Part shown: in pieces, positions 6,008 through 47,731 of the stretch | Numbering within the stretch: the first letter of the stretch is position 1 | How the letters are laid out: each line of letters starts with the position of its first letter | From: Halobacterium rubrum | Lineage (GTDB): Archaea > Halobacteriota > Halobacteria > Halobacteriales > Halobacteriaceae | Length of the DNA stretch: 64,000 nucleotides | Direction: 5' to 3' | Assembly: GCF_021729015.1 (NCBI RefSeq) | Contig: NZ_JAJQQZ010000003.1 | Location: 434,001 to 498,000, forward strand | Notes under the pieces: generated by a model | Seen by the model: the letters and a program-made list of their open reading frames with translations, nothing else | The model's database searches: none | What the model was told of the DNA's origin: nothing | Translations under genes and position numbers: made by a program

Positions 6008-6724
6008 TCACGTGAGGCCCGCGACCGACTGCTGGAGGCGAATCGTCGGCGGCACCAGCAGTCCACCCAGCAGCACCACGAAGACGTACCGGGTGCTCTC
6101 GGCAGCCGCCCCCGGCAACAGCAGCCCCAGCAGGCCGGCGACGGCCACACCGGTGGCAGCCACCAGCACGAACACCAGGTGGCGACGCAGCGTGTCCATC
6201 GTCGTCCCGTGCGCCAGCGCCTCCAGTCGCTCGCTGAACACGACGCCGTACGTGGCGAACGCCAGCGCGCCGAGCCCGCGCAGCAACACTGTCACCGTCG
6301 TCTCCCCGAGCAAGACGACGACGACCCACTCGACGGCGACCACGACCACGAACCCGAACTCGACGAGCCGCAGCGTCGACAGCGGGATCTCGCGGTCTTC
6401 CGGCGCCGGAGCGAGCGCGCTCGCGTAGTACACCTCCCGCATCGAGAACGCCACGAAGGCGATGGTGAACAGCAACGACAGGTCCGCGAACGCCCACACA
6501 AACTGGCCGCCGCCGGCCACCGTGCCGGCCAGCCCGAACGCACCGAACAGCGACACGGCCAGCCCCACGTACGTCAGGTACCCCCAGAAGTCGCGGTGCC
6601 CCTCGAGGCGGTCCAGCGAGTAGTTCTGCGTCGCGTAGTAGGTGAACCCGAGACCGGCGACCACGAGGATGCCGTACCCGGTGAACGCCACCGCGTCCAG
6701 CACCGCAGCCGGGCTGGCTGTCAC
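6008..6724 (-). CDS. Seven-helix membrane protein, function unknown
   Basis: A 238-residue protein with about seven hydrophobic helices spread along its length and short loops; it has no signal peptide, cofactor motif or transporter signature that I recognise. TYYATQNYSLDRLEGHRDFWGY in the first loop and REVYYASA in the third are the most distinctive polar parts. Its ATG overlaps the stop of the HEAT/pseudokinase gene by 4 bases (6721-6724), which implies coupled translation and a shared role, perhaps with this protein as the membrane anchor or sensor for the kinase-like partner. That role is inference from operon structure only. Confidence 0.75.
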   Translation of the reverse strand: MTASPAAVLDAVAFTGYGILVVAGLGFTYYATQNYSLDRLEGHRDFWGYLTYVGLAVSLFGAFGLAGTVAGGGQFVWAFADLSLLFTIAFVAFSMREVYYASALAPAPEDREIPLSTLRLVEFGFVVVVAVEWVVVVLLGETTVTVLLRGLGALAFATYGVVFSERLEALAHGTTMDTLRRHLVFVLVAATGVAVAGLLGLLLPGAAAESTRYVFVVLLGGLLVPPTIRLQQSVAGLT

Positions 6725-25659: not shown

Positions 25660-27102
25660 ATGGAGCAAAACGCAATCCACCGCCGCGAGCGACCCTTCGT
25701 GGCCGGTGAGTGGGTGTCCGACGGGGACCCGATGCCCGTCTCGGACCTCGCAGACGGCGGCACGTTCGCGTCCGTCGCCGCCGCCAGCGCGGGCGACGCC
25801 AAGCGCGCGCTCGCCGCGGCAGACGACGTCCAGTCGCTCCTCCGGGAGACGACGGTGCCCGAGCGCGTCGAGTGGCTCGAAGCCATCGCCGACGGCATCC
25901 GCGCCCGCGAGGACGAACTCGCGGAGGTCATCGTGCGGGAGGCGGGCAAACCCATCTCCAGCGCGCGCGGCGAAGTCCAGAGTGCCGCCGAGCGCTTCGA
26001 GCGCGCAGTCGGCGAGATTCGCCACCTCAAGGGAGAGTACCGCGAGGGCACGACGGCCGGCCACGAGGACTGGCGCGCCGTCGTCAAGCACGAGCCGATG
26101 GGGACCGTGCTGTGCATCTCCCCGTACAACTACCCTCTCGCGACTACGGCGCTGCAGGTCGCGCCGGCGCTGGCCGCCGGCAACGCCGTCGTCGTGAAGC
26201 CCGCGAGCAAGACGCCCGTCAGCGCCGCCATCCTCGCGGAAATCGTCGCCGAGGCCGGCCTCCCGGCCGGCGCGTTCAACTTCGTGCCCGGTGAGTCCAG
26301 CGTCGTCGGCGACCCGCTGGCGTCGGACAGCCGCGTGGACGCTATCGCGATGACGGGGTCGTCGGGCGCCGGCGAGCACGTCGCCCGGCAGTCCGGCATC
26401 ACCCGGCTCCACATGGAGCTCGGCGGGAACGCGCCGGCCATCGTCTTCGAGGACGCCGACCTCGACGACGCCGCCAGCGCCGCAGCGAAGGGGTCGCTGA
26501 AGTACGCGGGCCAGCGGTGTTCGGCCGTCTCCCGCGTGCTCGCTCACGAGTCAGTCCACGACGACCTCGTGGCGCGCGTCGACGACGCGATGGACGACTG
26601 GACGGTCGGCGACCTCTTCGAGGAAGACACCGACCTCGGGCCGCTCGTCAGCGGCGACCAGGTCGACTGGGTCGCCGAACTGGTCGACGACGCCGTCGAC
26701 CGCGGCGCGACCGTCGTCCGCGGCGGCCAGCAGTACGAGGACAACGGCGTCCACTACTACGAGCCGACGCTGCTCGCCGACGTTCCCCGGGACGCCCGCA
26801 TCGTCGACGAGGAGCAGTTCGGTCCGGTCTGCGCGGTCACGACCATCGAGGATGAGGACGACGCTCTCGACCTGGCGAACCGCTCGGACCTCGCGCTGGA
26901 CGCCGCCGTCTTCACCAGCGACCACGACCGCGCGATGCGGGTCGCCGAGCGCGTGAACGCCGGCGCCGTCCGCATCAACGGCGCACCGAGCCACGGCCTC
27001 GGCGACGTGCCGTTCGGCGGCAACGACGCCTCCGGCATCGGCCGCGAGGGCCTCGACTCGACCATCCACGAGTTCGTCCGGAAGAAGTCCATCGTCCTCT
27101 GA
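25660..27102 (+). CDS. Aldehyde dehydrogenase (GAPN/lactaldehyde dehydrogenase-like)
   Basis: A 480-residue NAD(P)-dependent dehydrogenase. General base E253 is in LHMELGGNAPAIVF, nucleophile C287 in AGQRCSAVSR, and the cofactor site in VVVKPASKTPVSA and MTGSSGAGEH. The C-terminal DVPFGGNDASGIGREGL is the usual oligomer segment. The pattern resembles archaeal non-phosphorylating glyceraldehyde-3-phosphate or lactaldehyde dehydrogenases, but the substrate cannot be settled from sequence. A TAAACT box near 25628 predicts a short leader. It converges with the ZIP gene. Confidence 0.92.
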   Translation: MEQNAIHRRERPFVAGEWVSDGDPMPVSDLADGGTFASVAAASAGDAKRALAAADDVQSLLRETTVPERVEWLEAIADGIRAREDELAEVIVREAGKPISSARGEVQSAAERFERAVGEIRHLKGEYREGTTAGHEDWRAVVKHEPMGTVLCISPYNYPLATTALQVAPALAAGNAVVVKPASKTPVSAAILAEIVAEAGLPAGAFNFVPGESSVVGDPLASDSRVDAIAMTGSSGAGEHVARQSGITRLHMELGGNAPAIVFEDADLDDAASAAAKGSLKYAGQRCSAVSRVLAHESVHDDLVARVDDAMDDWTVGDLFEEDTDLGPLVSGDQVDWVAELVDDAVDRGATVVRGGQQYEDNGVHYYEPTLLADVPRDARIVDEEQFGPVCAVTTIEDEDDALDLANRSDLALDAAVFTSDHDRAMRVAERVNAGAVRINGAPSHGLGDVPFGGNDASGIGREGLDSTIHEFVRKKSIVL

Positions 27103-45493: not shown

Positions 45494-46714
45494 GTGCCAT
45501 CGCTGTACGGGCTGGAGCGCTCCGGCGACGTCGAGAAGCTCGTGGAGTTGCTCCAGGAGAGCGAGAAGGAGACGGTGCGTCGGCGCGCCGCCGAGATCCT
45601 CGGGAATCTGGACGAGCCGGAATCCGAGGGGGTTCAGGCGCTCGTCGACGCGATGAGCGACGACGACGAGACGGTGCGTGCGGCGGCGATCGACGCGCTG
45701 ACCCAGCAGGAGGCGGTCGACGCGCTGATGCGTGGACTCGGACAGGAAGTGCCCGAGTCCGGGGCGACGTGGGCGCAGGCGGAGGCGTTCGTGGAGAGCC
45801 TGCACGCTGGGACGCCCGAGTTGCGGATGGCGTCCGCGAACGTGCTCGGGCTGCTCGGTGTGGAGGATACGGCGAAGCCGCTCGCGCAGCGGATGCAGGA
45901 CGAGGAGCACGTCGGAGTGCGGGCGCGGATTGCCCGCGCGCTCGGCCGCGTGGAGCAGCCGGCGGCGACGGGCGTGCTCGTGAACTGTCTGCACGGCGAG
46001 CCGCTGAAGGTTCGCCGGGAGGCGGCCGAGTCGCTGGGCCGACTGACGACCGAGGAGTCCCTCGACGGACTGCTGTCCGTGGTGGAGGACGACAGCGAGG
46101 CGATGCGCCGGACCGCAGTGAGTTCGCTGGGGCAGTTCGGGACGCCAGAGCCGGTGGACGCGCTCGTCGAGCGGCTCGGCGACGACAGCGACCTCGTGCG
46201 GCGTGCGGCCGTGTTCTCGTTGATCGAGATTCTGTCGAACGTCCCGCCGGACCAGAGCCACCAGCTCCGGGAGACGATCGTGGACCGGATGGCGACGCGG
46301 TCGGACCCGAGCATCGTGAAGTCCCTCATCGAGATCATCGAGGAGGGGACGCAGCTCCACCAGCGGCGGAACGCGACGTGGATGCTGGGCAGGGTGGCCG
46401 GAGACCAGCGGACGAAGATGGACGCAATCGAGGCGTTGCGAGACCTCCTCGGTGAGGACGACGACCTGATCGCGCAGTTCGCGGCGACGGGCCTCGCCGA
46501 AATCGGTGGGGCGTCGGTGGAGACGTCGCTGCTGGAGGTCATCGAGACCGACGACTACGGCGAGGACGCCGTGGCGATGGCGGCGTTCGCCCTCGGGAAG
46601 GTGGGCGGTGACCGCTCGCGCCAGCGTCTGGAGCGGCTGGTCGACGAGACGGAGAACGAGGAGGTGCGTCGGCGTGCGTTCTCCGCCATCTCGAAGCTGG
46701 GCGGACACACGTAG
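45494..46714 (+). CDS. HEAT-repeat taxis protein (OE2401F-like)
   Basis: A 406-residue alpha solenoid of PBS-lyase-type HEAT repeats, for example RRRAAEILGNLDEPESEGVQ, DETVRAAAIDALTQQEAVDA and RRTAVSSLGQFGTPEPVDAL, about ten in all. In H. salinarum a HEAT-repeat protein at the same place, next to the cheF genes, binds Che and archaellum switch proteins. It is therefore a likely adaptor between CheY/CheF and ArlCDE. GTG at 45494 is chosen because a TATA-like box predicts transcription from exactly that base. Confidence 0.88.
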   Translation: MPSLYGLERSGDVEKLVELLQESEKETVRRRAAEILGNLDEPESEGVQALVDAMSDDDETVRAAAIDALTQQEAVDALMRGLGQEVPESGATWAQAEAFVESLHAGTPELRMASANVLGLLGVEDTAKPLAQRMQDEEHVGVRARIARALGRVEQPAATGVLVNCLHGEPLKVRREAAESLGRLTTEESLDGLLSVVEDDSEAMRRTAVSSLGQFGTPEPVDALVERLGDDSDLVRRAAVFSLIEILSNVPPDQSHQLRETIVDRMATRSDPSIVKSLIEIIEEGTQLHQRRNATWMLGRVAGDQRTKMDAIEALRDLLGEDDDLIAQFAATGLAEIGGASVETSLLEVIETDDYGEDAVAMAAFALGKVGGDRSRQRLERLVDETENEEVRRRAFSAISKLGGHT

Positions 46715-46753
46715 CCGGTCGCGGTTTCAGTCGCGAGAATCGCACGCAAAGCA

Positions 46754-46760
46754 TTAAATA
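46754..46760 (+). promoter_or_regulatory. TATA box of the leader-ORF/cheF1 transcript
   Basis: TTAAATA, centre 46757, predicts transcription at about 46783, two bases before the leader-ORF ATG at 46785 and about 76 bases before cheF1. Confidence 0.6.
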
Positions 46761-46784
46761 CGCTTGCAGAAAAGAGACGTGTGA

Positions 46785-46862
46785 ATGAGTTCGGGCGCGT
46801 GGTGGTGTCGAGGGGTGACCGGCTGGAGCGCGTCCGCAGGGACGATCGCAGGTGAGGAATGA
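46785..46862 (+). CDS. 25-codon leader ORF overlapping the cheF1 start
   Basis: ATG at 46785 opens a frame of 25 sense codons (SSGAWWCRGVTGWSASAG near its start) and ends with TGA at 46860-46862, which shares ATGA with the cheF1 start (46859). The predicted transcript begins at the leader ATG, so ribosomes would translate it as a leaderless message and could re-initiate on cheF1. Three Trp codons and a Cys lie in a 25-residue peptide. Whether the peptide itself matters is unknown; this could be a chance frame. Confidence 0.5.
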   Translation: MSSGAWWCRGVTGWSASAGTIAGEE

Positions 46863-47731
46863 GCGAGTCAGAGTACAAGATAGCGGACGGGTCGGGGAAG
46901 TTCCTGCAGGCCGTCAAGGACGGCCGGCGGATGAAAGACGCGCAGTGGTCGAACGGCCGCATCCTCCTGTCGAACAAGCGCATCGTTCTGGCGGGCAACG
47001 ACGGGAAGCGGAACCTCCCGCTGTCAGAAGTGCAGGGGCTGAGCGGTCGCTACGACGTGAACCAGACGGTCGCGGAAGTCGGGGACTACGTGAGCATCCG
47101 GATGAGCAACGAGAGCGTGGTCCTCGTCTCGCTGGGCGACAACACGGAGAGCTTCGAGAGCAAGCTCTACGGCGCGCTCCTCGACCAGACGGAGCTACAG
47201 GTGAAACACCCGGCGGTGAAGGGCGGGGTGGTGACCGACGAGGAGTTCGAGCGCGCGCGCATCAAGGTCGACGAGTCGGAGTTGAGCGTCGCGATGTCGA
47301 ACGGGTCGTTCGTGTCCGTCGAGCTGGACGACGTCGGGTCGGCGGAGGCGGCGTCGCTCGACGTGAACGGCGAGAAGAAGCCGGTCCTAAAGGTCGAGCA
47401 CACGATCGACCAGGACACGAGCGTGCAGACGTACTTCGCGACCGACTCGCACACGGCGTCGATTCTGGAGTCGCTGCTGACGAAGGAGGCCCAGAAGAGC
47501 CAGGGGTCAGTCGAACTCTCCGAGACCGAGAAGCGCGTGCTGATGGCGCTGTACTCGGGCGTGTCGTCGTTCGAGATTCCGGACTTCCTCGGGATGGACG
47601 TCGACGAGGTCGAGGAGATCTTCGAGCGGCTCGTCGAGGTCGACGTCCTCGAGGAGGTCCGGAAGCGCCGCGAGGTGACGATGAAGACCCGCGGCCGGAA
47701 CATCGCCAGCGAAGCCATCAACGAGGAGTAG
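46859..47731 (+). CDS. cheF1: Archaeal taxis adaptor CheF (first copy)
   Basis: A 290-residue DUF439 protein that couples phosphorylated CheY to the archaellum switch in H. salinarum. The N-terminal PH-like part has SNGRILLSNKRIVLAGNDGK; the middle has LQVKHPAVKGGVVTDEEFER; the C-terminus is a winged-helix-like end, SETEKRVLMALYSGVSSFEI, with MKTRGRNIASEAINEE last. ATG is fused to the stop of a 25-codon leader ORF. cheF2 converges from the opposite strand. Confidence 0.93.
   Translation: MSESEYKIADGSGKFLQAVKDGRRMKDAQWSNGRILLSNKRIVLAGNDGKRNLPLSEVQGLSGRYDVNQTVAEVGDYVSIRMSNESVVLVSLGDNTESFESKLYGALLDQTELQVKHPAVKGGVVTDEEFERARIKVDESELSVAMSNGSFVSVELDDVGSAEAASLDVNGEKKPVLKVEHTIDQDTSVQTYFATDSHTASILESLLTKEAQKSQGSVELSETEKRVLMALYSGVSSFEIPDFLGMDVDEVEEIFERLVEVDVLEEVRKRREVTMKTRGRNIASEAINEE

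Follow-up and report, generated by a model that had tools for sequence, protein, structure and literature searches.

A short open reading frame that ends on the cheF1 start codon in Halobacteriaceae and probably delivers ribosomes to it

The window analysed here is a stretch of 64,000 nucleotides from Halobacterium rubrum (contig NZ_JAJQQZ010000003.1, positions 434,001 to 498,000), in which Pfam matches give the gene order archaellin, HEAT-repeat gene, cheF1, cheF2 and cheR; all features described below lie on its forward (+) strand. CheF1 is the link from CheY to the archaellum motor. Upstream of cheF1, the HEAT-repeat gene (OE2401F-like; 45494–46714; Pfam), whose stop codon overlaps the cheF1 start in many other haloarchaea, is followed by a TATA-like box, TTAAATA (46754–46760), by an upstream open reading frame (uORF) of 25 codons (46785–46862, TGA included), and by the putatively coupled downstream gene cheF1 itself (46859–47731; CheF-arch, PF04283, E = 8e-73). 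The uORF translates as MSSGAWWCRGVTGWSASAGTIAGEE before its stop codon, with three Trp and one Cys, and its TGA (46860–46862) lies over the cheF1 ATG (46859–46861), the two forming the tetramer ATGA (46859–46862). Within the uORF there is an SD-like AGGTGA (46850–46855), a presumed aid to reinitiation that is present but not stronger than in shuffled sequence. The TATA-like box, the 25-codon ATG frame and the overlap of its TGA with the cheF1 ATG had all been claimed in the original prediction, and this anatomy proved exact to the base. The same cluster order is found in H. salinarum (PMC2666748).

The TATA-like box is conserved as TTAWATR in 13 species, 31–33 nt before the uORF ATG, and the 5′ end of the transcript is predicted to lie at or near that ATG (46785). 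A further element, TTTCA-N4-CGAGAATCGCACGCAAAG (46725–46751), which includes a presumed BRE beside the TATA box, is nearly invariant across the 13 Halobacterium species. Only one site in the genome matches its part CGAGAATYGCACGCAAAR exactly, the other matches carrying three mismatches, and given that single match no regulon was found for the upstream element as a motif; TTTCA-N4-CGAGAATYGCACGCAAAR, with its GCGA-GAA-TCGC symmetry, is possibly a site for a regulator dedicated to cheF1. A separate leaderless promoter directly before cheF1 was considered and rejected: between −45 and −19 of cheF1 none of the 17 genomes has an AT run of more than 3, and hence none has a TATA-like stretch at leaderless distance. 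From this we infer that transcripts of the conserved promoter have to begin close to the uORF ATG.

In 13 of 13 Halobacterium species the uORF ATG is found 71–74 nt before cheF1 (at −74 or −71), the frame that it opens is free of stops and its TGA forms the ATGA overlap; the uORF is also present in all four of the other family genomes with a full cheF1, which belong to two sister genera and have the ATG at −71/−68 and −101; the species compared are phylogenetically related. The frame is therefore kept in 17/17 family members with cheF1, as is the ATGA in which its stop and the start of cheF1 overlap, the rest of the family consisting of eight genomes without a CheF1 match and one incomplete genome with a weak partial match. 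The same arrangement is seen in the records for H. bonnevillei, Halobacterium sp. CBA1126 and Halobacterium sp. KA-4. We found no relative in which the frame is broken while cheF1 is conserved (0 of 17), a result that favours the reinitiation idea of the original prediction; the comparison of upstream regions across Halobacterium that it had proposed showed a conserved frame and stop overlap (13/13), but not conserved Trp codons.

This conservation is set in a leader that has diverged heavily, with a tree length of 3.1–3.4 substitutions per site versus 1.3 for cheF1 in the 13 species. ATGAG at the uORF start has undergone zero changes across these species, and the ten bases just upstream have each undergone 2–7 parsimony steps. 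When neutral evolution was simulated on the 13-species tree, the fraction of runs in which every species retained the ATG was 5e-5, and that in which the frame remained free of stops was 0.014–0.07. Indels in the leader are of 3 nt, with the addition of one compensating +1/−1 pair in genome G011, and they preserve the frame; the distances from TATA box to ATG (31–33) and from HEAT stop to cheF1 (146–198 in Halobacterium) do not vary in threes. The other two frames of the leader contain stops in only 4/17 and 8/17 species, so that the avoidance of stops is by itself modest evidence, and it is the ATG and its spacing that carry the weight. Judged from this comparison of sequences, the uORF frame is more than chance.

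The strongest competing account takes the frame to have arisen as a by-product of a GC-rich 5′UTR, with cheF1 having a leader of about 75 nt and a de novo start and the uORF being untranslated or irrelevant. GC-rich DNA often contains open frames, and the ATGA follows directly from the Met-Ser start of CheF1 (ATGAGC), so that the role of chance must be assessed from where the ATG lies, from the mod-3 spacing and from the openness of the frame; given the ATG, the chance of such a coupled frame is 0.2–0.34 per locus. Leadered transcripts do exist in haloarchaea and can initiate, but haloarchaea preferentially start on an AUG at the 5′ end (PMC4983044), and a by-product would not be expected to keep ATG, frame and mod-3 spacing in 17 of 17 genomes under heavy divergence, nor to show indels that are frame-preserving and compensating. 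We consider this account unlikely, and the same conservation despite divergence speaks against the chance frame with a plain 76-base leader that the original prediction had allowed for.

Among 468 genes called in 464 kb of this genome, 18 have an upstream ATG with a TATA box, and only for cheF1 does this ATG open a leaderless ORF that counts at least 10 codons and ends within 12 nt of the ATG of the gene. The control gives a rough rate, as the gene caller was crude and homemade. A second, weaker candidate of 12 codons with a TATA box, METVSPARWLLP, was noted at about 6600–6650 of locus L138 (G000:C3, about 26600–26650, + strand), where it ends as GTGA on a possible alternative gene start.

Beyond the family, haloarchaea conform to a broader pattern, in which the cheF1 start is either overlapped by the stop of the HEAT gene or reached by a short, unconserved ORF that spans the gap. 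Natrialba and its relatives and several further lineages have a HEAT stop that overlaps the cheF1 start or directly adjoins it. With a HEAT stop 40–172 nt from cheF1, an ORF beginning at that stop ends at −7 to +5 of the cheF1 start in 13 of 17 lineages, with 3.2 expected; such bridge ORFs were defined as starting in an NTGA at the HEAT stop or no more than 2 nt from it, and the expectation was taken from shuffles with a random frame. The corresponding p is about 1e-7, and 5e-5 when one lineage is taken per genus (9/11), values that serve as guides only, because the tests, with the range of end positions used for the bridge ORFs, were designed after the pattern had been seen and the lineages are related. 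In the genus Halorussus, a short ORF follows an htr gene in 18/18 genomes and ends in ATGA in 13, at −6 or −12 in four and at +14 in one. Counter-examples to the rule of an ORF ending at cheF1 exist, namely G261, G214 and G197 as well as lineages in which cheF1 is immediately preceded by its own promoter.

Several observations were made in passing at these loci. L072, L159, L160, L080 and similar loci have bridge ORFs of 19–25 codons that run from the ATGA of the HEAT stop to the cheF1 start or to just before it, and in several of this group a TATA-like box is found near −45. The bridge ORF of L166 (G131), located about 173 nt upstream of cheF1, contains an in-frame tandem repeat (VIDSLATRGAT), reaching 58 codons with the overlap with cheF1 intact. 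The Halorussus loci (L107–L124) have a conserved ATG soon after the htr stop, and the short ORF itself is unconserved and widely variable in length.

A second account would take the uORF ATG and its neighbours as an element for transcription initiation or for binding of a regulator, cheF1 being expressed mainly by read-through from the HEAT gene or otherwise and the open frame being secondary. The bases around the predicted start and those of 46725–46751 are indeed conserved at the base level, as are, more than the remainder of the leader, the bases after the uORF ATG. Such an element leaves unexplained, however, why the distance from ATG to cheF1 is always 2 mod 3 (71, 74, 101) and why a +1/−1 pair should compensate, and it has nothing to say on the bridge ORFs of other lineages; we regard it as improbable.

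The peptide encoded by the uORF shows no sign of constraint. The synonymous fraction is 0.269 against a neutral expectation of 0.266, so that no purifying selection on the amino acids was detected, and base variety is even over the three codon positions (31/33/30). Across the 17 genomes the Trp and Cys codons are not conserved, and Trp is absent from the uORF in most relatives. Nor did the leader show a conserved RNA fold, six leaders folding no better than shuffles, or any Rfam match at E up to 1; an RNA structure or riboswitch was rejected on these grounds. The Trp- or aromatic-sensitive leader suggested in the original prediction is thus not supported, the neutral synonymous fraction and the variable Trp and Cys codons being evidence against it. 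More generally, it is very improbable that the uORF encodes a functional small protein or any other attenuating leader, readings for which the three Trp codons and one Cys codon of H. rubrum might be cited, as most relatives lack Trp, the amino acids change at the neutral rate, a conserved fold and an Rfam match are both missing, and cheF1 is not a biosynthetic gene. With position, frame and stop preserved across the family and the peptide not preserved, the uORF probably only carries ribosomes to cheF1; what appears to be kept is the act of putative translation up to the AUGA, and not its product.

We therefore favour as probable the reading of the 25-codon frame as a feeder (delivery) ORF, with a leaderless start, termination at the AUGA and reinitiation on cheF1. 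Transcription would begin at or a few bases from the uORF ATG, as the spacing of the TATA box suggests, and a start there would mean loading of ribosomes by the leaderless route favoured in haloarchaea; 72% of protein-coding transcripts in H. volcanii are leaderless (PMC4983044). A peptide of arbitrary sequence would be made, translation would terminate at the AUGA, and the same ribosome, or its small subunit, would reinitiate on the overlapping cheF1 AUG, perhaps aided by the AGGTGA just upstream. The synthesis of CheF1 would in this way depend on termination–reinitiation instead of de novo initiation on a 5′UTR. The comparative evidence sides with the leaderless uORF and re-initiation of the original prediction (0/17 broken), and on the basis of sequence we infer the transcript start, the translation and the reinitiation.

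Work in H. volcanii provides the precedent for these steps. Coupling is strict in the four tested ATGA pairs whose SD motifs are strong, although in 5′UTRs such motifs do not bring about de novo initiation, and removal of the SD reduced reinitiation in most pairs and abolished it in none (PMC6728339); coupling requires an overlap or a very short gap and is near zero over 22–23 nt (PMC10666635). By analogy, the form of the cheF1 leader, AGGTGA included, would be that expected for termination–reinitiation. AGGTGA or GGAGG-like strings are found in the leaders of most of the 17 genomes, and duplex energies give no SD enrichment above shuffles of the G-rich leader.

As a tentative generalization, cheF1 may rely on reinitiation in most haloarchaeal lineages, the ribosomes coming from the HEAT gene, from a bridge ORF, from the post-htr ORF of Halorussus or from the self-promoted leaderless feeder ORF of Halobacteriaceae; feeder ORFs, maintained for their frame and not their sequence, might then be a general route by which an internal gene gains a promoter of its own without losing coupled initiation.

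The cheF1 uORF would be of a kind already known, that of the coupled leaderless small ORFs of mycobacteria, in which an RTGA tetramer is found and for which the authors suggest that delivery of ribosomes suffices and the peptide is unimportant (PMC4633059). Both have a short ORF with a TGA over the downstream start, the RTGA overlap being present here, and the 5′-terminal position of the mycobacterial ORFs on their transcripts is predicted for the cheF1 uORF as well; the mycobacterial ORFs are bacterial and ribosome-profiled, whereas the cheF1 uORF is archaeal, its translation is putative, and selection on its peptide was directly tested. With the ATGA pairs of H. volcanii (PMC6728339, PMC10666635) it shares the 4-nt overlap and the archaeal class, and its AGGTGA is an SD-like string, no stronger than in shuffles, inside the upstream ORF, but those are pairs of annotated genes, whereas the partner of cheF1 is a 25-codon frame with its own promoter and an unconserved product. 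The likeness to the trp leader and the cysteine-rich mycobacterial leaders extends to a short ORF that precedes a gene and, in H. rubrum, to its Trp codons; unlike amino-acid attenuators, the cheF1 uORF has neither conserved Trp nor an attenuator-like fold, and it precedes a gene outside biosynthesis. A recent review treats short ORFs by which ribosomes are “delivered” to the next gene (PMC12548453), and uORF candidates are known in Methanosarcina (PMC11456600); the literature searched, which was mostly open-access, yielded no leaderless feeder ORF in archaea that bears such an evolutionary signature.

The cheF1 uORF offers a concrete and testable archaeal case of a short ORF apparently kept for its frame and stop and not for its peptide. 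It joins two traits of haloarchaea, namely transcripts that are mostly leaderless, and SD motifs that serve reinitiation and not de novo initiation. If this reading is true, the annotated 5′UTRs of haloarchaea would be worth searching for further feeder ORFs, and the dose of CheF1 would be set by the efficiency of reinitiation.
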